Of a DNA stretch of 64,000 bases, positions 20,056 through 31,548 are shown piece after piece. The number at the start of each line of letters is the position of its first letter. Positions within the stretch are counted from its first letter, which is position 1. Source of the stretch: Methanobacteriota archaeon (GTDB lineage: Archaea; Halobacteriota; Methanosarcinia; Methanosarcinales; Methanosarcinaceae). The stretch is from the NCBI GenBank assembly GCA_016841625.1, contig JAENYU010000008.1, positions 63,634-127,633 of the forward strand, given 5' to 3'. The translations under genes were made by a program, and so were the position numbers. The notes under the pieces were generated by a model that made no database searches, had not been told where the DNA came from, and saw only the letters and a list, made by a program, of their open reading frames with translations.

Positions 20056-20760
20056 ATGAAGGTGGTTTTCATAAACAACAGGGATTCCTTCGTATGGAAC
20101 CTTGTGGATTACATTTCATATTTTGAAAAGGATACCGTTGTTCTCCCGAACACGGTCACAGTCGAGGAAGTAAGAGCCCTCAATCCCGATGCGCTGGTAA
20201 TTTCCCCTGGCCCGGGCAACCCCTCGGACCCGAAGGACATAGGGAGCTGCATAGACATAATCCGGGAACTGGGGCAGGAAATCCCCCTGCTTGGGGTCTG
20301 TCTCGGGCACCAGGCTATCAATTTCACATTCGGAGGGACGGTCAGGAGAAGCAAGGCAGGTCCGGTACACGGGAAAAGTTCACAGATCCTGCACAGCAGT
20401 TCCTCGCTTTTTGGAAAGATGGGGGAAACATTTGAAGCCGGACGCTATCATTCCCTGGAGATCGGAGACACGGCCCCAGGGCTTCGGATTACAGCCAGGG
20501 CAGAAGACGGGAGCATCATGGCAGTAGAACATGAAAAGTACCCGATATACGGCCTCCAGTTCCACCCGGAATCCGTGCTAACCCCCAACGGGCTGAAAAT
20601 AATTGAGAGTTTCCTGGAAATTGCCAGGAGCTTTGAAAAAGAGGGGAAAAACTGTAAAAAAGAAGCTAGTGAATTCGAAAAAGGTAGTAAATTCGGAAAA
20701 GATAGCCAGCTTCTGGAAGCTGGCAATGAGCTTTTCCAGGCGCCTGTTCAGCAGGAATGA
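20056..20760 (+). CDS. trpG: Anthranilate synthase component II (glutamine amidotransferase)
   Basis: A 234-residue class I glutamine amidotransferase that supplies ammonia to TrpE. The nucleophile is Cys82 in LLGVCLGHQAINFTFGG, and the His-Glu pair lies in YGLQFHPESVLTPNG. The oxyanion segment VISPGPGNPSDPKDIG is present. The ATG at 20056 follows GAGGAGGCG. After the normal domain ends (IIESFLEIARSF) there is an extra tail of about 45 residues rich in Lys, Glu and Ser with a repeated (E)FxKxxKxGK pattern, absent from typical TrpG, probably grown by slippage. It is the last gene of the trp operon. It ends five bases from the convergent repeat-protein gene. Confidence 0.94.
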   Translation: MKVVFINNRDSFVWNLVDYISYFEKDTVVLPNTVTVEEVRALNPDALVISPGPGNPSDPKDIGSCIDIIRELGQEIPLLGVCLGHQAINFTFGGTVRRSKAGPVHGKSSQILHSSSSLFGKMGETFEAGRYHSLEIGDTAPGLRITARAEDGSIMAVEHEKYPIYGLQFHPESVLTPNGLKIIESFLEIARSFEKEGKNCKKEASEFEKGSKFGKDSQLLEAGNELFQAPVQQE

Positions 20761-20765
20761 CCCCT

Positions 20766-21524
20766 TTATTTTTCTTCTGCTTTTTCGGATTCTTCGTCCT
20801 CTTCTTCAGGCAATTCTTCCCCGGTTTCCCCTTCAAAGAATTCTTCCTCGGTAAATTCCTCATTGGGCCGGCCCTCGTAGCCTGCAGGCTGGAGGTTCTG
20901 CAGTTCTGCAAACTCCCCTACGGTTTTAGCAATCAGGCTCGGGTATACCTCGATCTGTTCCCTCTTCAAAAAATCATTTTCTTCGGAGGCTTTTATAATT
21001 TCCTCGCGGGCAGCTTTTGCGTCCCTACTTAAGTCCTCAAGGTCCTGCTTTTCGGAGAGGTAAGCCACCTCTTCGAGGGAAAGGGTTGTCCAGAGGGTCA
21101 CTACTTCCATCTTCTTCTCAACTGCTCCCATTCCTATTATCTTGAGGGTATCAACTGAATCTGCTACCGCTTCTTTCATCTGGAACTGGGCAGCGCCTTT
21201 TCCGAGCTCCTGCACGGCTCTTGCAAAGGACCAGAGAGCATTTGAGTAATTCTTCTCCAGACTCCCTTCGGCAAGAGGTTTAATAGCCTTCAATGCAGTC
21301 ACTGTTACTTCATCGAGCCTTTTCTTGACAGCTCTGTTCCCGATATTCCTGATCGAGATTACGACTCTTTTCAGGTCATTCTCAAATTCCCCTTTGAGCA
21401 GCTCTTCCCCAAATTCCCTGAGATAATCAATGTTCTGGATTGCGTCGTATTCATTATTTTCCCTTACCGCTTTTTCTCCAGCGTCTCCAAGTTCTATAGC
21501 TCTTTGTTCATTTAACGAGAACAT
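20766..21524 (-). CDS. 23-residue helical-repeat protein, paralogue 1
   Basis: A 252-residue protein of a family I do not recognise, the most divergent of five same-strand paralogues (20766-26420). The shared N-terminus is MFSLNEQRAIELGDAGEKAV. Next comes the common RVVISIRNIGNRAV segment, and then four consecutive 23-residue repeats starting at GNRAVKK, AEGSLEK, GKGAAQF and GMGAVEK, each with Gly1, Ala4, Leu/Met near 9 and hydrophobic residues at 16, 20 and 23. An alpha-helical solenoid is the natural reading. The C-terminus differs from its sisters: a Lys/Glu helix and a very acidic tail (about 40 residues, mostly Glu). The ATG at 21524 follows AGGGGTT; the frame is open to 21557 with only a TTG. 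No signal peptide, so probably cytoplasmic. Confidence 0.8.
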   Translation of the reverse strand: MFSLNEQRAIELGDAGEKAVRENNEYDAIQNIDYLREFGEELLKGEFENDLKRVVISIRNIGNRAVKKRLDEVTVTALKAIKPLAEGSLEKNYSNALWSFARAVQELGKGAAQFQMKEAVADSVDTLKIIGMGAVEKKMEVVTLWTTLSLEEVAYLSEKQDLEDLSRDAKAAREEIIKASEENDFLKREQIEVYPSLIAKTVGEFAELQNLQPAGYEGRPNEEFTEEEFFEGETGEELPEEEDEESEKAEEK

Positions 21525-21895
21525 TTCTAAACCCCTATCCAATTTAATTCTGCTCAAAACGTTAGATATTGAATAATTTGCTTACATCTTATTTGCTTAC
21601 TGTGATATTAGCCTTCCTATATTTTTAGAGATATAATCGTCTTAAAAGGGATTATATCCTGAAAAAAGGAATTTCAGACCTCTAAAATAAAATATCTTGT
21701 AATGTTAGTGTCGAAACCAGGAGGCCCTTAAAGCGCCTCTGAAAAGAAAGTATCGAGAATGCTCCAAAATCACTAAGAAGTATTTCGGACAGGTTTCTCA
21801 AATTTATTAAGCCTTAAAGCTTCCGAACCCAAAATTCCTGAACTCGAAAGCTCCTAATTCGAAAACCTCTGACCCAGAATGCTTCAAGCAACCTT
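21525..21895. other. Spacer between repeat-protein genes 1 and 2
   Basis: A 371-base AT-rich spacer. It contains an inverted repeat gGAGGCcct...GCGCCTC (about 21720-21740) and a short degenerate repeat (aactcgaaagctcctaattcgaaaacctct) near 21840-21870. No gene seen. It probably holds the promoter of paralogue 1. Confidence 0.4.
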
Positions 21896-22825
21896 TTATC
21901 GGACTTCGGCAAACTGGGCATAAACCTTTTCGTGCAACCTCCTGATTTCCTCCGCATTCCGCTTCAGTTTTGTACGCGGAACCTTTATATCCAGAAAAGA
22001 ATCAAGCAGGCACTCGGCCGAAAGCATGGTATTTCCAAGGTAACCCGCTTCAGCGTTTTTCCTGACAGTCTCGATAGAGAGCGCCGCCTGAGCAGCGGCA
22101 AGTTCCAGGTTCTTCCGGGAAGAAAGTTTTCCGAGTTCTCCTAGACAGTGGAGAGGGGTGCATGTTTCCTCGCAAATTCTCCGCTCTTTAGACAGACTCT
22201 TCTTTTTCTTTATCAGAGCCCAGTTCAGCGCAATCTGAGCGTCTTCTAGCAGGAGTTCGGCGCTTATTACGGCGTTTTCAAGCCCTGCCCCTGCTGCACT
22301 TCTTCCTACATCCCGAATAAGTGAGGGGATATCAGCCTGGAAAGTTTCCAGGTCCTCTTCCCCGGAAAAAGTAGCAATTTCCGTCAGGAGCGACTGGCTG
22401 GTGATGGCGGCTTTTTCCATTCCCTTCCTGGCTGCCTCTTTTCCGACTTCTTTCAGGGTAGTGGCCACAAGCCGGAGAGATACCGGCATTCCACTATGCG
22501 ATGTCTTTTTTCCGAGAATCGCAAGAGCAGAAGCGACAGCTAATACCGTTTCTTCGGTCCCCTTTTTAGTCGCTTCCTGTCCGATTCTTCCCAGAGAAAC
22601 CGATGCATCAAGGAGACATACTGTCAGTCCCTTTTCAACTGCAACTTCACCGAGAGTTTGTATGCAGGAGATCACCTTTTCCGACCCTGCTTCCGGGAAC
22701 TGCCCGACAAATTTGATTCCAAGATCCCCCAGATCGTCGACAACCCGGAGGAGCTGCACTTCATTCCTCTCCCGAACCGCCGATAACCCTAGGTCAAGCA
22801 GCCGAGCTTCTTCTGTTAAAGGCAT
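21896..22825 (-). CDS. 23-residue helical-repeat protein, paralogue 2
   Basis: A 309-residue member of the unrecognised family. The N-terminus MPLTEEARLLDLGLSAVRERNEVQLLR aligns with the sisters. Six 23-residue repeats follow, beginning GEVAVEK, GQEATKK, GKKTSHS, GKEAARK, ATFSGEE and GRSAAGA. A diverged basic segment (KKKKSLSKERRICEET) with two cysteines then interrupts the series, and a final repeat GKLSSRK precedes the shared tail that contains GYLGNTMLSAECLLDSFL. The ATG at 22825 follows a strong GGAGGTG. The protein is soluble and rich in Ala, Leu, Glu and Lys. Spacers of 370 and 350 bases on either side suggest separate transcription. The family position downstream of mtmCB suggests but does not prove a role in methylamine metabolism. 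Confidence 0.8.
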   Translation of the reverse strand: MPLTEEARLLDLGLSAVRERNEVQLLRVVDDLGDLGIKFVGQFPEAGSEKVISCIQTLGEVAVEKGLTVCLLDASVSLGRIGQEATKKGTEETVLAVASALAILGKKTSHSGMPVSLRLVATTLKEVGKEAARKGMEKAAITSQSLLTEIATFSGEEDLETFQADIPSLIRDVGRSAAGAGLENAVISAELLLEDAQIALNWALIKKKKSLSKERRICEETCTPLHCLGELGKLSSRKNLELAAAQAALSIETVRKNAEAGYLGNTMLSAECLLDSFLDIKVPRTKLKRNAEEIRRLHEKVYAQFAEVR

Positions 22826-23178
22826 AATTCACCTCCAATTCCGCAGCCGTTACTACAATTTACGATAAGGCAGGATATTAATTTTTTCATTTTCTTCATT
22901 TTTTTTGTCCTGTAAAAGGCAGCAGCCCCTAAAAAGGGAGACATATTTCAAAGCGAGAGAAGAACCCGGAAGAAAGGAAAAGAAAAAGGGAACAAAAACG
23001 AAAAAGTAAAGAAGAAGGCTGGAGGAAAGAAAAAAAGTTCAAAAAAATAAGAAATTCAAAAGGATAAGAAATTCAAAAAGATAAGAAATTCAAAAAGATA
23101 AGAAATTCAAAAAGATAAGAAATTCAAAAAGATAAAAGGGAAAAAGTTGATTGATGACCTGCAAAGGTTCTTCTATTT
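22826..23178. other. Spacer between repeat-protein genes 2 and 3
   Basis: A 353-base purine-rich spacer containing the 17-bp array at 23046-23130. No gene seen. Confidence 0.4.
23046..23130. repeat. 17-bp tandem repeat
   Basis: Five copies of gataagaaattcaaaaa (first one imperfect) lie just beyond the stop codon of paralogue 3 (minus strand). Confidence 0.9.
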
Positions 23179-24063
23179 TCACATTTTGGAAAGGATTTTT
23201 TCGTGTAGTTCCTTTACTTTTTGCAGCTTCTCCATGCTTTCTTCAGTCTCAGTAATTCCACCACTTTCGAAGTTTTCAAGGATGATTTCTGTCACAATTG
23301 AAGAATTCGTTAGGACGTTCTCTTCAGCCTGAACTTTTAAGGTCTCAAGCGTCCACTGGCTCTGAAGTACAGCACCCTGCATGTCCTTCTTCAGGGAAAG
23401 CTTTCCGATCTCTTCAACCGAGAGGGCGGTTGAACTGAGAGCTTCATCTAAGTATTGTTTCGAAGCCAGTGTGCCAAGTTCCTCAAGCAGGAGGAGTACA
23501 CTGAGAGCTTCGGTCTCAAGCTCTTTTCCGGCAGCATTTCTTCCGATTTCTCCGAGGAAAGTTAGCACATTGATCAGCGCTTCTTCCAGGCCCTGTTTGC
23601 CTGCAGCCATACCTATTTCCCTGAAGATCAAAGCCATGGTAACCGTTTCTTCCATGCTCTGCTGCCCGGAAGAGGCTTTTCTGATTTCCATCAGGGTCGT
23701 TACCGCAACCTTTGGGGCTGTCCCGAGCTCGTTTACCGCAGCTTTCTTCCCGAGTCTTCCTATCGACGCGACGGCTTTTTCCACAGCAGATTCAAACCCT
23801 TTTTCTGCTGCTGCCTTTGCCAGGTTCCCCAGAGCCAGGGTGGAATTGATCGTAACGAGTTCAAGTTTTGTCTCTGCAGCCAGCTCCCCGATATCATCGA
23901 TGGAGAGGATTACCCTCTCGGCATCGGCCTCTTCATTTTCCGTGATGAAGTCTGCCGCAATTCCTGTAAGGGAATCCAGTGCCTGGAAAACCCGGCTCTC
24001 ATCCTTTTCTTCAACCGAGGTTAAACCCACATCCATGGCATCTGCTTCGTTCAATGTTATCAT
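23179..24063 (-). CDS. 23-residue helical-repeat protein, paralogue 3
   Basis: A 294-residue member of the family and the most regular one. After the N-terminus MITLNEADAMDVGLTSVEEKDESRV and the shared segment DAERVILSIDDI, eight uninterrupted units of exactly 23 residues begin with GELAAET, AKAAAEK, GKKAAVN, RKASSGQ, GMAAGKQ, GRNAAGK, GTLASKQ and GKLSLKK. The usual pattern is Gly1, Ala4, Leu/Met9, Ala12, Ala or Val16, Leu20 and Ile/Val/Leu23. The tail (ENVLTNSSIVTEIILENFES, then a Glu/Lys helix) matches the sisters. No cysteine-rich motif, membrane segment or catalytic signature is visible, so a scaffold or protein-binding role is the most economical guess. The ATG at 24063 follows GAGGGG. 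Confidence 0.82.
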   Translation of the reverse strand: MITLNEADAMDVGLTSVEEKDESRVFQALDSLTGIAADFITENEEADAERVILSIDDIGELAAETKLELVTINSTLALGNLAKAAAEKGFESAVEKAVASIGRLGKKAAVNELGTAPKVAVTTLMEIRKASSGQQSMEETVTMALIFREIGMAAGKQGLEEALINVLTFLGEIGRNAAGKELETEALSVLLLLEELGTLASKQYLDEALSSTALSVEEIGKLSLKKDMQGAVLQSQWTLETLKVQAEENVLTNSSIVTEIILENFESGGITETEESMEKLQKVKELHEKILSKM

Positions 24064-24560
24064 TTTCTTTTTCCCCTCTTGTCAGGTTTGTCTAAATATT
24101 ATGAACTATTCTGAAGATTTCGATATTTTTCAGGCTCGGCCTGCTGAATGCTTCTTTGCCCTTGCAAGTAAGTAATTTCAACAATTTTACAGTTTTGATT
24201 CCGGTTTATTCTATGAAGTTCTGAGGTTATTAGTGTTGCTATATATCGTGGAAATGCTCGGAGTGTGAGATCTGCCTCCTACCACATGGCCTGAACTTTC
24301 GGGGGGGAGCTGCAGAGGCAGTGAATGAACAATGAGGGAAAAAGCTTTCATGAGCCCGTGGACAGTAAATGGAAATGGAGGGAAAGAGGCTATTCAGGGT
24401 TCTAAGCCGAAAAAAACAGCATGTCAGATCTTCAGGAATCGTAGAGCCGTTAATCAAATAAGAAGAGGAAGTTTCCCGGTAGGGTAGAGCATGGAATCTT
24501 TTTCAGCCGCCAGGTAAATGGAATTGCCTGCCCGGAGGCATTGAGAAGCGCTAAAAAACC
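24064..24560. other. Spacer with possible decayed reading frame
   Basis: A 497-base spacer. On the plus strand near 24240-24330 a frame reads WKCSECEICLLPHGLNFRGG to a stop, and a second frame continues from about 24330 to 24486 (KAFMSPWTVNGNGGKE...). Two CxxC-like pairs and broken frames recall the end of a TnpB-type transposase, but I could not establish homology. The promoter of paralogue 3 should lie at the left end. Confidence 0.25.
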
Positions 24561-25400
24561 TTATTTATCCAGGGTTTCTGCTTCATTTATCAGTTCAGTG
24601 CAATTCAAAACTTCAAGGGCTATTTTTGCCGTAAGTACATGACTTACCATGTATTTCTCATCAGTTTCGATTCTTATATTCTCAAGGGAATAGGCAGCTC
24701 GGATGACAGCACTATCAAGGGATTCGTTTTCAACATCCTGAGCTCCACTTTCCGAAGGGAAAGATTCACTTTTCATCGGATTTTCCTTTACGGAATGGGT
24801 AAGTAAAAACCCGAAAACTTCAGAAAAATCGTCCGAAATAAAGGATGCTTCCTCATGGGCCAGGGGGAACAGCAGAATTCCCGGCATAATGGGGACGATT
24901 CCTCCGTCATCCGGACCTCTGGATGCGGAATACCCGCACATGCTCTTACCTACCATTCCGAGAGCCAGGGCCGCAGTCAGAGCTTCACCTTTCTTATTTT
25001 GCAGGGAAGCAGAATTAACTATTTCCCCCAGGTATGCCACCGCAACCTTCACCGCAGCTTCCATATCCTGTCCTGCTGCAGCTTTTCCAATTGTACAGAA
25101 GGAATGAAGAATACTCTGGCTTGTATCTGTCATCTCCTTTCCCCTGGCAGCTTTTGCCATCCGGCCCAGGGAGATAAGGGAAATGAAGACCCCGGCTTCC
25201 ATCCTATGAAGGGCGGCAGCGTTCCCTATATGTTTTATACAGGTGACCGCTCTTTTGGCATCGGGATCCAGTCTCCTGTTTATGTACTCTGTACCGCGCT
25301 CGGTCAGGAAATCGATAGATCTGAGCACTCCCAATTCATCTTTTTCCTTAACCGAGCTTAAACCAAGGTCTGTTGCCCTGGACTCATTCAAGATGGACAT
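24561..25400 (-). CDS. 23-residue helical-repeat protein, paralogue 4
   Basis: A 279-residue family member. The N-terminus MSILNESRATDLGLSSVKEKDELGVLRSID and the segment DAKRAVTCIKHI match the sisters. Four regular 23-residue repeats begin GNAAALH, AKAARGK, GKAAAGQ and VNSASLQ. The series is then broken by about 90 residues unlike the other members (GKSMCGYSASRGPDDGGIV, then a Phe/Ser/Glu-rich stretch), as if several repeats were replaced or have diverged. The shared C-terminus returns with SAVIRAAYSLENIRIETDEKYMVSHVLTAKIALEVL. The ATG at 25400 follows AGAGGAT. The broken middle may reflect relaxed selection or a changed partner. Confidence 0.78.
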   Translation of the reverse strand: MSILNESRATDLGLSSVKEKDELGVLRSIDFLTERGTEYINRRLDPDAKRAVTCIKHIGNAAALHRMEAGVFISLISLGRMAKAARGKEMTDTSQSILHSFCTIGKAAAGQDMEAAVKVAVAYLGEIVNSASLQNKKGEALTAALALGMVGKSMCGYSASRGPDDGGIVPIMPGILLFPLAHEEASFISDDFSEVFGFLLTHSVKENPMKSESFPSESGAQDVENESLDSAVIRAAYSLENIRIETDEKYMVSHVLTAKIALEVLNCTELINEAETLDK

Positions 25401-25562
25401 GTATAATCCTCTTTAAGTTATCAGCAGGTGCAGATGAAAGACTGACCGCCGGGTTTTCTGGCAGTTTCCATGCTCCTCCACAGTGAAAATGCAGGTCTCA
25501 TGGACCTTTCCGAACTGCCACTTCCCTTTTTGTGAAGTTCGTTCAGCGTTCTCTTCCGGGCA

Positions 25563-26420
25563 CTATCTCTTTGCATTCAGGGTTTTTTTGTTTATTTTCC
25601 CTTTCTTTTCCGTTTCAAGCTTCTCGAAATACTGGAGAGCTACCCCTGCAATGATGGAAGCATTCATAAGGTAGCGGTCATCGGCGTCAAATTTGATCGT
25701 CTCAAGGGAATATGCTGCCTGCAAAAGGGCTTTTTCAAGCCCCTGCTCATCTGCAGCCCGTCCTATACTCTCCAGGGAACGGGCAGTTGTGTCGGCAGCA
25801 TCCTTCAGGTTCTTTTCAATTGCCCTTGACCCCAGTTCCTGCAGGAGGAACTCGGCATTGAGCGCAGCGGCCTCAAAATTCTGGCTTGCAGCAGTTTTCC
25901 CTGTAATCCCCAGCCAGGAAAGCGTGCTTTCCGCAGCATCCCCGAGTTTCTGCTGGGTTACGCTTCTTCCGACCTCTCCCAGGGCAAAAATAACCGCTAT
26001 TGTTTCTTTATTCAGCTTCCTGCAAGCCGCCGTGTTCCCCATCTCCCCCAGACAGGAAACAGCCACCTTTGCGGGAACCTCAAGTTTCTGTTCTCCCGCG
26101 GCTTTTCCGACCTCCCCGATCGCCAGGGCAATGCTTACAAGGGCACTTTCCATCCGCTTCCCGCAGGCTTCCTTTGCAACCGGGGACAGAAGCAGGAGTG
26201 CAGTAATAGATGCCATTTCCAACCGCTTTAAAGCTGCCGCTCTTCCGATATTTTTTATGTACTCAACTATTCTCCTGGCGTCGGCTTCCTCGCCTTCCAC
26301 GGCATAATTAACCGCAATTTCACTCAGGTAATTCAGAAGTTTTATGACCTCAGCTTCGCTCCTTGCATTGACTGCAGCCATTCCCATTTCAAAAGCTTCG
26401 GTTTCATCCAGCGGTAGAAT
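25563..26420 (-). CDS. 23-residue helical-repeat protein, paralogue 5, AUU start
   Basis: A 285-residue family member, the one nearest mtmB. The protein has eight regular 23-residue repeats (GRAAALK, AKEACGK, GKAAGEQ, GNTAACR, GRSVTQQ, GKTAASQ, GSRAIEK, GRAADEQ) and the shared tail FDADDRYLMNASIIAGVALQYFEK. No ATG or GTG is placed to give the family N-terminus. An ATT codon at 26420-26418, four bases after a GGGGGGGTG ribosome binding site, yields (M)LPLDETEAFEMGM, which aligns residue for residue with MITLNEADAMDVGL and MSILNESRATDLGL of the sisters. A TTG at 26435 is in frame but lies before the binding site. I therefore infer AUU initiation. The gene may share a leader with the structured element at 26606-26680. 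Confidence 0.78.
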   Translation of the reverse strand: MLPLDETEAFEMGMAAVNARSEAEVIKLLNYLSEIAVNYAVEGEEADARRIVEYIKNIGRAAALKRLEMASITALLLLSPVAKEACGKRMESALVSIALAIGEVGKAAGEQKLEVPAKVAVSCLGEMGNTAACRKLNKETIAVIFALGEVGRSVTQQKLGDAAESTLSWLGITGKTAASQNFEAAALNAEFLLQELGSRAIEKNLKDAADTTARSLESIGRAADEQGLEKALLQAAYSLETIKFDADDRYLMNASIIAGVALQYFEKLETEKKGKINKKTLNAKR

Positions 26421-26879: not shown

Positions 26880-28256
26880 TCAGAATACAAGGCCGAGGTC
26901 TTCGAGCTGCTTCCTTGCGCCGTCGTAGACCTGGACGTACTCTTCCGTGGGTGTTACGGTCTTGACGTCGTAGCATTCCTGGAAGGTCTTGCCTGCGGGT
27001 GCGCTTGCATAGTTCTTCTCGTAGAGGCCGACGAGCTTGTCGAGGATTCCGTTGACTTCTGCGATGTCCATGCCTGCGGTTGCCCTTGCAACTTCTCCCA
27101 TCATCCTGGCTTCCATACCTGTGGTCTTGTCCTGCACTACACCCTTTGCTGCTGCCACCCCGGAGAGGATCTCACGGCCTGATGCAGTGTCGGTGATGGA
27201 CTGTGCGGAAGCTTCGAGGAGGCACATCTCGGTACACGGGCCTGCACATGGGTAGTACTGGTTCCCGGAGAGGATGTCTGTGAACTCGGAGATGGTTGCG
27301 CATGCCCAGCCTGCGATTGTGAGGGTTTCCCTGGTGTTGGTGGATCCCCAGCGGATGTGGACAGGGCCGTCAAGGTGCCAGCTTGCGCTGCTCATGACGA
27401 TGGAGTTGAGGTGAGTTGCAATGTCCACGATGGTGGTCTCTTCGATGCCGCCGGCGTACCCGCCGAAAATGGGCATCTGTTCGTCCATGATGATGTCGCT
27501 GTTGCCTTTGTAGTGGGCGATAACCGCGATTGCATCGAGGTCGATCTTCAGCTCGTTGAGCTGGGAGACTTCGTGGCTGTCGGAGGAGATCTGTCCGCCG
27601 TAGCAGTCAGATGCAATGTTTCCCTGAGCGGACAGGGAAGTCTCAGGGCCCTATATGCCCATGCCCGGGCGGCCTGCCATAGCTGCTGCCTGTTTGATGA
27701 GCCTGGTTTCGGTCTTTGCTGCCAGGACTTCATAGGGGCTTCCCGGAATTGGGGGCTTTCCGCGGACGGAGGTCATAACACCGTCTACAATGGTGTCGAC
27801 TTCCTTTTCCAGGGCGTAGCTCATGTGGACAGGCATGAAGACGTCTTCGGAGATCGGGGACCCGGTAGGACCACCCTGGATGATCGGCTTCTTCTTGTCG
27901 CCTACTTCTCTCTTGGAGACACGGACTGCGTCCCTGCCGGTTCCGAGGGTGAATTCCTTCTGGACGTTGTTGATTGCGTCCCAGATTTCGGCTTCGCTGT
28001 ACTTGACGATCCTGTGGGTGTCGGTACAGTAGATCCCGAGGTCCAGAAGCATCTCAAAGCCGGCGTTGAAGAGCTTTTCCATCATGTCCCTGTTGGTTGG
28101 GACAAATTCGCCTTTGAAGTCAAGCCCGTACTTCTGCTTGAGCTCCATTGCCTTCATGGGGATCTTCATGAGGTCCCAGTCGTCCTGGGTGCACTTCTCA
28201 CCGACTTTTGCTCTGTCGTAGAAATCGTAGCAATCAAATGATTTTCGGAATGTCAT
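26880..28256 (-). CDS. mtmB: Monomethylamine methyltransferase (pyrrolysine protein)
   Basis: MtmB transfers the methyl group of monomethylamine to the cobalt of MtmC, the first step of methane formation from methylamine. The gene has 458 codons, the family length, with one in-frame TAG at 27653-27651, exactly codon 202, read as pyrrolysine in AGRPGMGI-Pyl-GPETSLSAQ. The N-terminus TFRKSFDCYDFYDRAKVGEKC and C-terminus YVQVYDGARKQLEDLGLVF match the family. The ATG at 28256 follows AAGGGGCT. An inverted repeat just behind the TAG corresponds to the PYLIS position. Automatic gene callers would split it into two frames (27651-28283 and 26880-27488). It lies 32 bases downstream of mtmC in one operon. 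Incorporation requires pylTSBCD elsewhere in the genome. Confidence 0.97.
27618..27653 (-). promoter_or_regulatory. Pyl codon with PYLIS-like stem-loop
   Basis: The amber codon is followed on the minus strand by CCCTGAG (27648-27642) and its exact complement CTCAGGG (27628-27622) with a 13-base loop. It matches the position of the proposed PYLIS element in mtmB, whose importance for readthrough is reported as modest. Confidence 0.75.
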
Positions 28257-28288
28257 ATTTTCGAGCCCCTTTATACACTGCATCCGGT

Positions 28289-28942
28289 TTACTTCATAAC
28301 TTCAAGAGCTACTTTTGCGGCTTCTGCAGCGTTCTCTGCGGTTGCGTCTGCTCCGATTTCGGCGATCCAACCGTCAGAAACAGGGGCTCCTCCGAACATG
28401 CACTTTACGCTGTCTCTCAGGCTTTCTTCCCTTAGCCTGTCCATGAGGTCCTTCTGGCCGAGCATGGAAGTGGTCATAAGGGCGGAACCTACAAGAATAA
28501 CTTTTTCTCCCTTGTGCTTTTCAACCTCTTCCACGACAGTCTCGTTGAGGACGTCGGTTCCAAGGTCGAGGATATCAAAACCGTTTGCTCCGAGCATGGT
28601 TGAAACAAGACGGTGTCCGATGTCGTGGATGTCTCCTTCTGCAACAAAGGTGATTGCAAGTCCGGTTTCTTCTCCTTCCTTCCTCGTCTTTTCAAGTTCA
28701 GGAGTCAGAAGTTCCATTGCTTCTTTCATTGCTTTTGCAGACATCATAATCTGGGGCAGGAAGATTTCGGCGGCTTCGAACTTGTCCCCTATGACCTTCA
28801 TTCCTGGGGCAAGACCCTTTGTGATAATCTCAAGTGCCGGAATTCCTGCGGCAAGGGCTTCCTGGGTTAACTGTACACATCCCGCGACATCCTGGTTAAC
28901 AATAGAGTCGCGAAGCCTGTCAAAAGTTTCCTGATCTGTCAT
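28289..28942 (-). CDS. mtmC: Monomethylamine corrinoid protein
   Basis: A 217-residue cobalamin-binding protein that accepts the methyl group from MtmB and hands it to the CoM methyltransferase MtbA. The N-terminal four-helix cap (FDRLRDSIVNQDVAGCVQLTQEAL, ITKGLAPGMKVIGDKFEAAEIFLPQIMMSAKAM) is complete. The cobalt ligand is His106 in GDIHDIGHRLVSTML, with the nucleotide-tail loops VILVGSALMTTSML and CMFGGAPVSDGW. Two ATGs are possible, 28951 (MIKM) and 28942 (MTDQ). I prefer 28942 from homologous length and spacing to GGATGAT. It heads the mtmCB transcript. No mtmP permease gene lies next to it, and downstream of mtmB the repeat-protein family begins. Confidence 0.95.
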   Translation of the reverse strand: MTDQETFDRLRDSIVNQDVAGCVQLTQEALAAGIPALEIITKGLAPGMKVIGDKFEAAEIFLPQIMMSAKAMKEAMELLTPELEKTRKEGEETGLAITFVAEGDIHDIGHRLVSTMLGANGFDILDLGTDVLNETVVEEVEKHKGEKVILVGSALMTTSMLGQKDLMDRLREESLRDSVKCMFGGAPVSDGWIAEIGADATAENAAEAAKVALEVMK

Positions 28943-29020
28943 TTTTATCATCCAAATTTATTTGTGTGATTTTGCCCGGAGCTTCAAGGGCGGAGTACGG
29001 AAGCTTATTACTTATTTACT

Positions 29021-30093: not shown

Positions 30094-31548
30094 TCAGTGA
30101 AGCTTTCCATCCTCATTCAGGATTTTCAGGAGTTCAATGATCGAATAGGAGGCCCTGGTGATACCCATACTGCGCTTATCGGTGTCTGTGCCGACAATGT
30201 AGAGGTTCTTTACAGGGGTCCGGATGTCCGCGAAATTTCCGTCGATGGTAACTGCGGCTTTTTCGGGGATCATGATCTGCTCGTGCTTCATAACTATTTG
30301 CTGCTCGATGTTCGGGAGGGCCCGATGAATCGTATCATAGGCCCTCTTGATCTCGTGTTTCTCGCTTCTGTGTTCGTTGATCACGAAGGAAAAGCCCACG
30401 AGCTGCTTGTCTTTCGGAGCAAGGGATGGGTCATAGTTGCTGATAGGCATTGCCCAGTAAGCAAAGTCCTTGAACCAGATCTCGGAACCGATATAGTTAA
30501 ACTCAGGAAGGTTTTTTCGCAGGCCCAGCCAGATTGTGAGGCTTTTGCTGTGGACGATCCCTTTCAGGTTTTCCAGGTAATCCGAAGGCAGATCCTTTAT
30601 CAGATTCGGGAGGTCGGTTGAAAATCCGGTATAGATGACGATTTCTGCGGAGTAGGCTTCATCGGCTTCCACGCCTGTAACCTTATCGTCCTGCACCAGG
30701 ATGCCTGTTACCTCACACTCGTTCTTGATTTCAACCAGGTCCGGGAGGGAATAGATTATGGCGTTAAGGAGGGCTTTTAGGCCCTTCCTGGGATAGCCCT
30801 GGGAATAGTTAACCTTGTTAGTGGCAAGCCTTTCCAGGGATGTGAAGGGGTGGGAAACCCTGTTCATCCTGGCCTGAAGGGAAGAGTGCAGGTTCAGGGG
30901 GAGCAGGGTAGCTAGAATGGACTCTGCAGACTGCCTTTTTCTGGGCTCCATTCTCCCGGTCATCTCAGCGAATTGTTCCTGGGTTATGCTGTCCCTCACA
31001 AAACTGCTGCCTGTAAGGATGCGGTAAGCAGAAGTCTCTTTCATGGACCTGCCAGAAAGGAAGCCAGAAATAGTGTCCACGAAATCACAGGTATCTTTGG
31101 AAAGGTTTCTTGGCATGTAGTCATACACAGACTGCCCCGAAATGTCCACCCCGAAAGTGGAAAGGGTCAGAGCTTTCGTAATCGCCTGGGAAAGCATGAG
31201 CCTGTCCTTTCTCGGAAGCACGTCGAAAGTCACAAAATCCCTCAGGTTTGAAGGGACTTTGGTAAAGGTATCTTCGGTCCGAACGTAGTATTGACCGTAG
31301 TCCTCAAAAACCGGCAGGTAGTCGAAGTAGTTGTCCATCAGCCTTCGAAGAGGGCCCTCATGGAGATGGGTTATGGCATGAGCTCCCGTATCTACCTGGA
31401 AGCCGTCAACCATATAGCTGTTGCAGTTTCCCCCAAGGTGCCTGTTTTTCTCGAGAACCAGTACCCTCTTCCCGTGCTTGGAAAGCGTAAGCGCAGCCAG
31501 AAGCCCGCTTACACCCGCCCCGACAACAATCACATCGTATTTTTTCAT
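30094..31548 (-). CDS. FAD-dependent oxidoreductase, phytoene desaturase/carotene isomerase-like
   Basis: A 484-residue flavoprotein with the amine-oxidase/CrtI layout. The N-terminal dinucleotide motif is YDVIVVGAGVSGLLAALTLSKHGKRVLVLEKNRHLGGN, and the substrate-side loop VDGFQVDTGAHAITHL follows. The C-terminal FAD signature is VKNLYIVGTDTDKRSMGITRASYS. Relatives desaturate or isomerise polyisoprenoid chains or saturate retinol; the exact substrate cannot be read. In a methanogen a squalene- or polyprenoid-related substrate is conceivable. The ATG at 31548 begins the motif directly. Its own promoter must lie in the gene-poor region to the right. A Rieske ferredoxin gene is downstream. Confidence 0.87.
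   Translation of the reverse strand: MKKYDVIVVGAGVSGLLAALTLSKHGKRVLVLEKNRHLGGNCNSYMVDGFQVDTGAHAITHLHEGPLRRLMDNYFDYLPVFEDYGQYYVRTEDTFTKVPSNLRDFVTFDVLPRKDRLMLSQAITKALTLSTFGVDISGQSVYDYMPRNLSKDTCDFVDTISGFLSGRSMKETSAYRILTGSSFVRDSITQEQFAEMTGRMEPRKRQSAESILATLLPLNLHSSLQARMNRVSHPFTSLERLATNKVNYSQGYPRKGLKALLNAIIYSLPDLVEIKNECEVTGILVQDDKVTGVEADEAYSAEIVIYTGFSTDLPNLIKDLPSDYLENLKGIVHSKSLTIWLGLRKNLPEFNYIGSEIWFKDFAYWAMPISNYDPSLAPKDKQLVGFSFVINEHRSEKHEIKRAYDTIHRALPNIEQQIVMKHEQIMIPEKAAVTIDGNFADIRTPVKNLYIVGTDTDKRSMGITRASYSIIELLKILNEDGKLH

Follow-up and report, generated by a model that had tools for sequence, protein, structure and literature searches.

Five Tandem Paralogs With a 23-Residue Repeat Beside mtmCB in a Methanosarcinaceae Archaeon and Their Candidate Relatives Among DUF2254 Tails

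Genomic Organization of the Array

The window, the whole 64-kb stretch of Methanosarcinaceae DNA that was analyzed, contains an array of five genes located between trpG and mtmB/mtmC. Numbered from low to high coordinate, they are P1 (20766–21557), P2 (21896–22825), P3 (23179–24063), P4 (24561–25400), and P5 (25563–26420), all on the minus strand, and the ORFs were found at the place that the first-pass annotation had given for five same-strand paralogs. Every pair of the five matched in blastp with an E value of 1e-11 or better, indicating that the genes are paralogous. On the low-coordinate side, trpG (plus strand) ends at 20760 and is convergent with P1. On the other side, mtmB, which is split into two ORFs by an in-frame TAG, and mtmC (together 26880–28951, minus strand) are neighbors outside the family, and a crtI-like FAD oxidoreductase gene (30094–31548, minus strand) is also a neighbor of the array.

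The intergenic gaps within the array, listed from the P5 end, are 162, 497, 353, and 338 nt, and mtmB is separated from P5 by 459 nt. With gaps of 162–497 nt, the array is therefore not a compact operon. The same genome encodes seven family members in total, namely P1–P5, one on contig C6, and one on contig C22. Several genomes carry, inserted between P4 and P3, a gene for a NosD-like protein whose C-terminal domain is a thioredoxin domain (L042, 10403–11932, and its relatives).

The 23-Residue Repeat Unit

The periodicity of each protein was determined from the BLOSUM62 mean self-similarity at successive lags. Peaks were observed at lags of 23, 46, and 69 in P1, P2, P3, and P5, and the lag of 23 ranked first in P4. 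Each of P1–P5 was also shuffled 500 times, and over lags 18–49 no shuffled sequence attained the observed lag-23 value. Read in rows of 23 starting at residue 13, P3 and P5 showed 10–11 consecutive rows in register without an indel. P2 kept the exact register over eight units up to residue 196, where a 13-residue insertion is followed by a return to register. P1 was regular for approximately seven units and ended in an acidic tail (residues 215–263 of its 263-aa ORF). P4 had approximately seven regular units before it became degenerate; its units 7–9 are degenerate and fast evolving, and its C-terminal cap is conserved.

The unit profile over 40 units of the window consisted of Gly at position 1 (78%), Ala at 4 (68%), Leu or Met at 9 (62%), Glu at 10 (62%), Ala at 12 (40%), Ala at 16 (32%), Leu at 20 (68%), and Ile, Leu, or Val at 23 (85%). 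These results bear out the exact 23-residue unit and the motif of the first-pass annotation, as well as the uninterrupted register that it described in the third and fifth members, but its unit counts, such as eight for these two proteins, were too low. Among P5 orthologs, Gly1 and Ala4/5 were the least variable unit positions, and the C-terminal units (AxDRYLMxASIxAxVALxxF) were almost invariant. Selection on the orthologs was purifying, with dN/dS values of 0.19–0.40 in comparisons against G011.

Comparison With Known Protein Families

Searches of Pfam and NCBIfam gave no match to P1–P5 beyond chance, and PADLOC and PHROGs gave nothing significant. The sole match in a sequence search of the PDB was a designed cytokine mimic at an E value of 0.03, which was judged to be due to chance. 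TPR and Sel1 profiles did not match P1–P5; these repeats have a unit of 34–44 residues, whereas the strongest lags of this family are 23, 46, and 69 (23 in P4). Literature searches on a 23-residue unit and on the locus tags found nothing on these genes. In Methanosarcina mazei, MM_1435 and MM_1434, which lie beside mtmB1, have been described as the permease MtmP (PMC7465815), and both were rejected as family members for that reason. The earlier view that the family was unrecognized and its unit length unusual is thus upheld, and the databases searched yielded no described repeat family of known role.

Predicted Structure

AlphaFold models were computed from alignments of only seven sequences, comprising in the case of P5 the five paralogs and two orthologs, and the P5 model reached a mean pLDDT of 91.4. 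Helices of the 290-aa P5 ORF were predicted at residues 27–46, 50–69, 73–92, 96–115, 119–138, 142–161, 165–184, and 188–207, followed by slightly longer ones. From this helix spacing, one 23-residue unit is predicted to be one 20-residue helix plus one 3-residue turn. In the model, Gly1 falls within the helix, and Leu/Met9 is a turn residue immediately ahead of Glu10, with which the next helix begins. P1 followed the same 20 + 3 pattern with eight predicted helices in the 23-residue register, and model confidence was low from residue 215 onward, that is, in the acidic tail. No transmembrane-like stretch was present in P1–P5, the top 19-residue Kyte–Doolittle mean being 1.27.

Foldseek comparison of the predicted models returned repeat solenoids, for the most part designed. 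The P1 model aligned with the de novo designed helical repeat 8fin with a TM score of 0.85 by target and an rmsd of 2.7 over 180 columns, and with the designed DHR54 (5cwl) with a TM score of 0.76. The best match of P5 was the circular tandem repeat design 7rdr, with a TMq of 0.52, which is weaker than the matches of P1; DHR71 (5cwn) was also among the nearest designed helical repeat proteins. The predicted models of P1 and P5 and the designed proteins share antiparallel helix arrays with short turns. However, the designs have no sequence kinship with the family (12–18% identity), and P1–P5, unlike them, are natural proteins in which a single 23-residue unit is predicted to make one helix. The likeness between the predicted folds and the designed proteins is one of resemblance, not membership. 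Foldseek searches against viral models were uninformative, with a best E value of 0.005, matches to large repeat proteins, and TMq values mostly below 0.35. The modeling and fold comparison agree with the helical repeat read in the first-pass annotation and give 20 + 3 residues per predicted unit, with designed repeats as the nearest solved structures.

Distribution and Proposed Relationship to DUF2254 Proteins

The family was found in all sampled genomes of three Methanosarcina-like genera (31/31, 4/4, and 2/2), the genus of the window being the one with four genomes. Gene content and kinship suggest that the three genera represent Methanosarcina together with close relatives. The family has multiple paralogs in all three genera, mostly with several copies per genome; a contig scan with a single protein as the query gave one relative only. 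Beyond the three genera, far weaker matches occurred in longer proteins, and the family profile was matched in 48 of 296 sampled Halobacteriota genomes.

These longer relatives are membrane proteins, and most of those read match DUF2254 (PF10011), a model that found no match in P1–P5 themselves. Only the first approximately 170 of the 368 PF10011 positions matched in the fusions, where the 23-residue unit forms a long C-terminal tail. DUF2254 proteins with such long cytosolic repeat tails occur in Halobacteriota (L080–L083, L110, L113, L115, and L120), and the tails of L113, L110, and L115 are almost perfectly regular. The DUF2254 proteins combine a membrane domain with a cytosolic repeat tail, whereas P1–P5 consist of the repeat without the membrane domain. 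Two further proteins, L121 and L125, have a different membrane domain, for which no Pfam model scored above the cut-off. In the literature searched, DUF2254 appeared only in papers that seem to treat other subjects.

The unit consensus (G1, A4, L9, E10, A12, A16, L20, and I/V23) was identical in the 40 units of the window and in 33 units of DUF2254 fusions. The family and the DUF2254 tails were aligned by hhalign with a probability of 99.6% and an E value of 1.1e-24 over 258 columns, and because repeats inflate such scores, the proposed common descent is based on the identical period and motif and not on an independent domain.

The sharing of one unit by soluble proteins and tails could also mean that P1–P5 serve, in soluble form, as partners or regulators of membrane proteins of the DUF2254 type, with the repeats of the tail and of the soluble protein stacking on each other. 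Both forms are indeed encoded in some Methanosarcina genomes, as in G032 (an 841-aa ORF), G021, and G000 (DUF2254 proteins). However, a DUF2254 protein was detectable in only four of nine sampled genomes of the three genera, and the DUF2254 protein of the genome studied here has only a weak 23-residue signal, so that we regard such a partnership as unlikely.

HEAT repeats of the PBS-lyase type (PF03130 and PF13646) are among the known repeats closest to the family, both being alpha-solenoids with a helix motif like xxAAxxLGxIG. The DUF2254-fused relative L081 scored above the HEAT_PBS cut-off (35.8 vs. 20.9 bits), and another relative, L120, was just under it (19.9 bits). The L081 score suggests that PBS-type HEAT repeats are linked to these proteins either distantly or by convergence. 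An origin of P1–P5 as ordinary, diverged HEAT repeats with a shortened unit is improbable all the same, since no HEAT model matched them even at an E value of 10, and since a HEAT unit comprises two helices (A and B) in approximately 30–45 residues, as opposed to the one predicted helix per 23 residues here.

Linkage to mtmCB and Other Neighbors

The first-pass annotation had tentatively derived a role in the scaffolding or control of methylamine metabolism from the position of the array behind the methyltransferase genes. The linkage was surveyed in genomes where no contig end interfered and both mtmB and an intact P5 were detected. P5 followed mtmB on the same strand within 1.4 kb in 11 of these genomes, which belong to two genera (G000, G011, G025, G061, G072, G077, G081, G083, G084, G086, and G094). 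In 10 other genomes (G032, G047, G065, G075, G085, G021, G040, G079, G001, and G015), an intact P5 was 21 kb (G085) to 1.7 Mb away from mtmB or on another contig, and in five of these (G021, G040, G047, G065, and G079), it directly followed crtI, with mtmCB elsewhere. The mtmB-adjacent state was scattered over the P5 tree, requiring at least three changes.

The other paralogs have neighbors of their own. P1 lies by the trp operon, with trpG beside it in 16 of the 19 loci read. The C6 paralog accompanies a DUF711 gene, and the C22 paralog is oriented divergently to an ECF-type transporter cassette whose S component is TrpP-like (L009, 8654–12927), so homologs do occur far from any methylamine gene. 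The adjacency to mtmCB is frequent but dispensable and is confined to the P5 end of the array, because P5 is away from mtmB in 10 genomes and the P1, C6, and C22 members lie beside unrelated genes. Adjacency in 11 genomes is nevertheless more than a one-off and may have a meaning for P5 alone. Tryptophan-related genes adjoin two of the seven paralogs (trpG at P1 and the TrpP-like gene at C22), which could be a coincidence.

P5, and perhaps P4 and P3, might on these grounds be accessory factors of monomethylamine methyl transfer, acting in assembly, corrinoid activation, or the scaffolding of MtmB and MtmC. In keeping with such a role, the 99%-complete genome G007, in which mtmB was not detected, also lacks P5; yet PylS is retained there. 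Conversely, G088 keeps mtmB although its P5 is broken by stops. No paralog lies near second mtmCB copies, including the second mtmB of the genome studied here (contig C36), which has no paralog on its contig, and the 459-nt gap together with P5's own conserved upstream element (see below) speaks against one tight operon with mtmB. Considering also the 10 genomes with a detached P5 and its position by crtI in five of them, we find an accessory role in methylamine metabolism very unlikely. The methylamine part of the earlier proposal is thus not supported by the linkage, and its scaffold part stays plausible.

Proposed Role of the Family

P1–P5 might self-assemble in the manner of some designed helical repeats and form a structural filament or a sheet. 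Such assembly would fit several paralogs with nearly equivalent units and the designed filament units DHF46, DHF91, and DHF58 among the Foldseek matches, but this is highly doubtful given that the conserved N- and C-terminal caps speak for finite solenoids and that the filament property of the DHF designs comes from engineered interfaces.

The explanation that we favor, to which we give about an even chance, is that P1–P5 are soluble alpha-solenoid scaffolds that arose as a Methanosarcina-specific expansion of the repeat module forming the cytosolic tails of DUF2254 proteins elsewhere in Halobacteriota, and that the position beside mtmCB reflects genomic neighborhood with no dedicated methylamine function. 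Each unit would be a 20-residue helix and a 3-residue turn carrying the Leu/Met plug, and successive helices would run antiparallel, with close packing via Gly1, Ala4, Ala12, and Ala16. Because the predicted solenoid is soluble, charged, and without recognizable catalytic motifs, P1–P5 may act as protein-binding scaffolds or adaptors. An invariant packing core with conserved end caps would then be combined with member-specific faces, so that each paralog could have its own partner.

In a broader and somewhat less assured reading, which we put forward tentatively, the soluble Methanosarcina arrays and the DUF2254 tails would together represent a natural family of single-helix 23-residue repeats, a new repeat class with modular, paralog-specific binding and a geometry otherwise solved almost only in designs. 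If this reading holds, such a repeat would be an alpha-solenoid unit in its simplest possible form, bearing on the origin of two-helix repeats such as HEAT and giving designed helical repeats a counterpart in nature. Every examined genome of this model methanogen group, for which working genetics exist, carries the family, yet it matches no Pfam or NCBIfam entry. The link to the DUF2254 tails would also offer a clue to a family of membrane proteins without known function.

Translation Starts and a Shared Upstream Element

P1 very probably starts at the ATG at 21524 (MFSLNEQ) and not at the TTG at 21557, because MFSLNEQ is the start in the orthologs. P5 has no ATG, GTG, or TTG directly at its conserved N-terminus, and judging from sequence conservation, its probable start codon is the conserved ATT (AUU) at 26418–26420 behind GGGGGGG. 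An ATT behind a G run was found at this N-terminus in 15 of 17 genomes (orthologs L011–L026), and in most of them the stretch from the upstream stop to this N-terminus contains no ATG, GTG, or TTG; in several, that in-frame stop is only two to three codons upstream. As exceptions, G047 and G065 have a GTG one codon upstream, and the P5 of the window has a TTG five codons upstream. With an AUU start, P5 will be missed or truncated by gene callers.

The heptamer TAATATC occurs four times in the window, and three of these copies, all on the minus strand, are approximately 50 nt upstream of P5 (26469–26475, as the core of AAAGCTAATATC), P2 (22874–22880), and P1 (21604–21610, in the block AAAATATAGGAAGRCTAATATC). 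The copy at P5 is kept in many P5 orthologs. Upstream of P1, the heptamer was likewise found in 18 of 19 regions, and AAAATATAGGAAGRCTAATATC is almost invariant among P1 orthologs. TAATATC is possibly a promoter or a shared control element. The pattern CTAATATC was rejected as a regulon marker, as its 11 matches in the genome compare with 16 for the reversed control and it is not enriched genome-wide. In the same genome, AAAGTTAATATC also occurs 34 nt ahead of the start of a DnaK-like gene (L127, near 1501).
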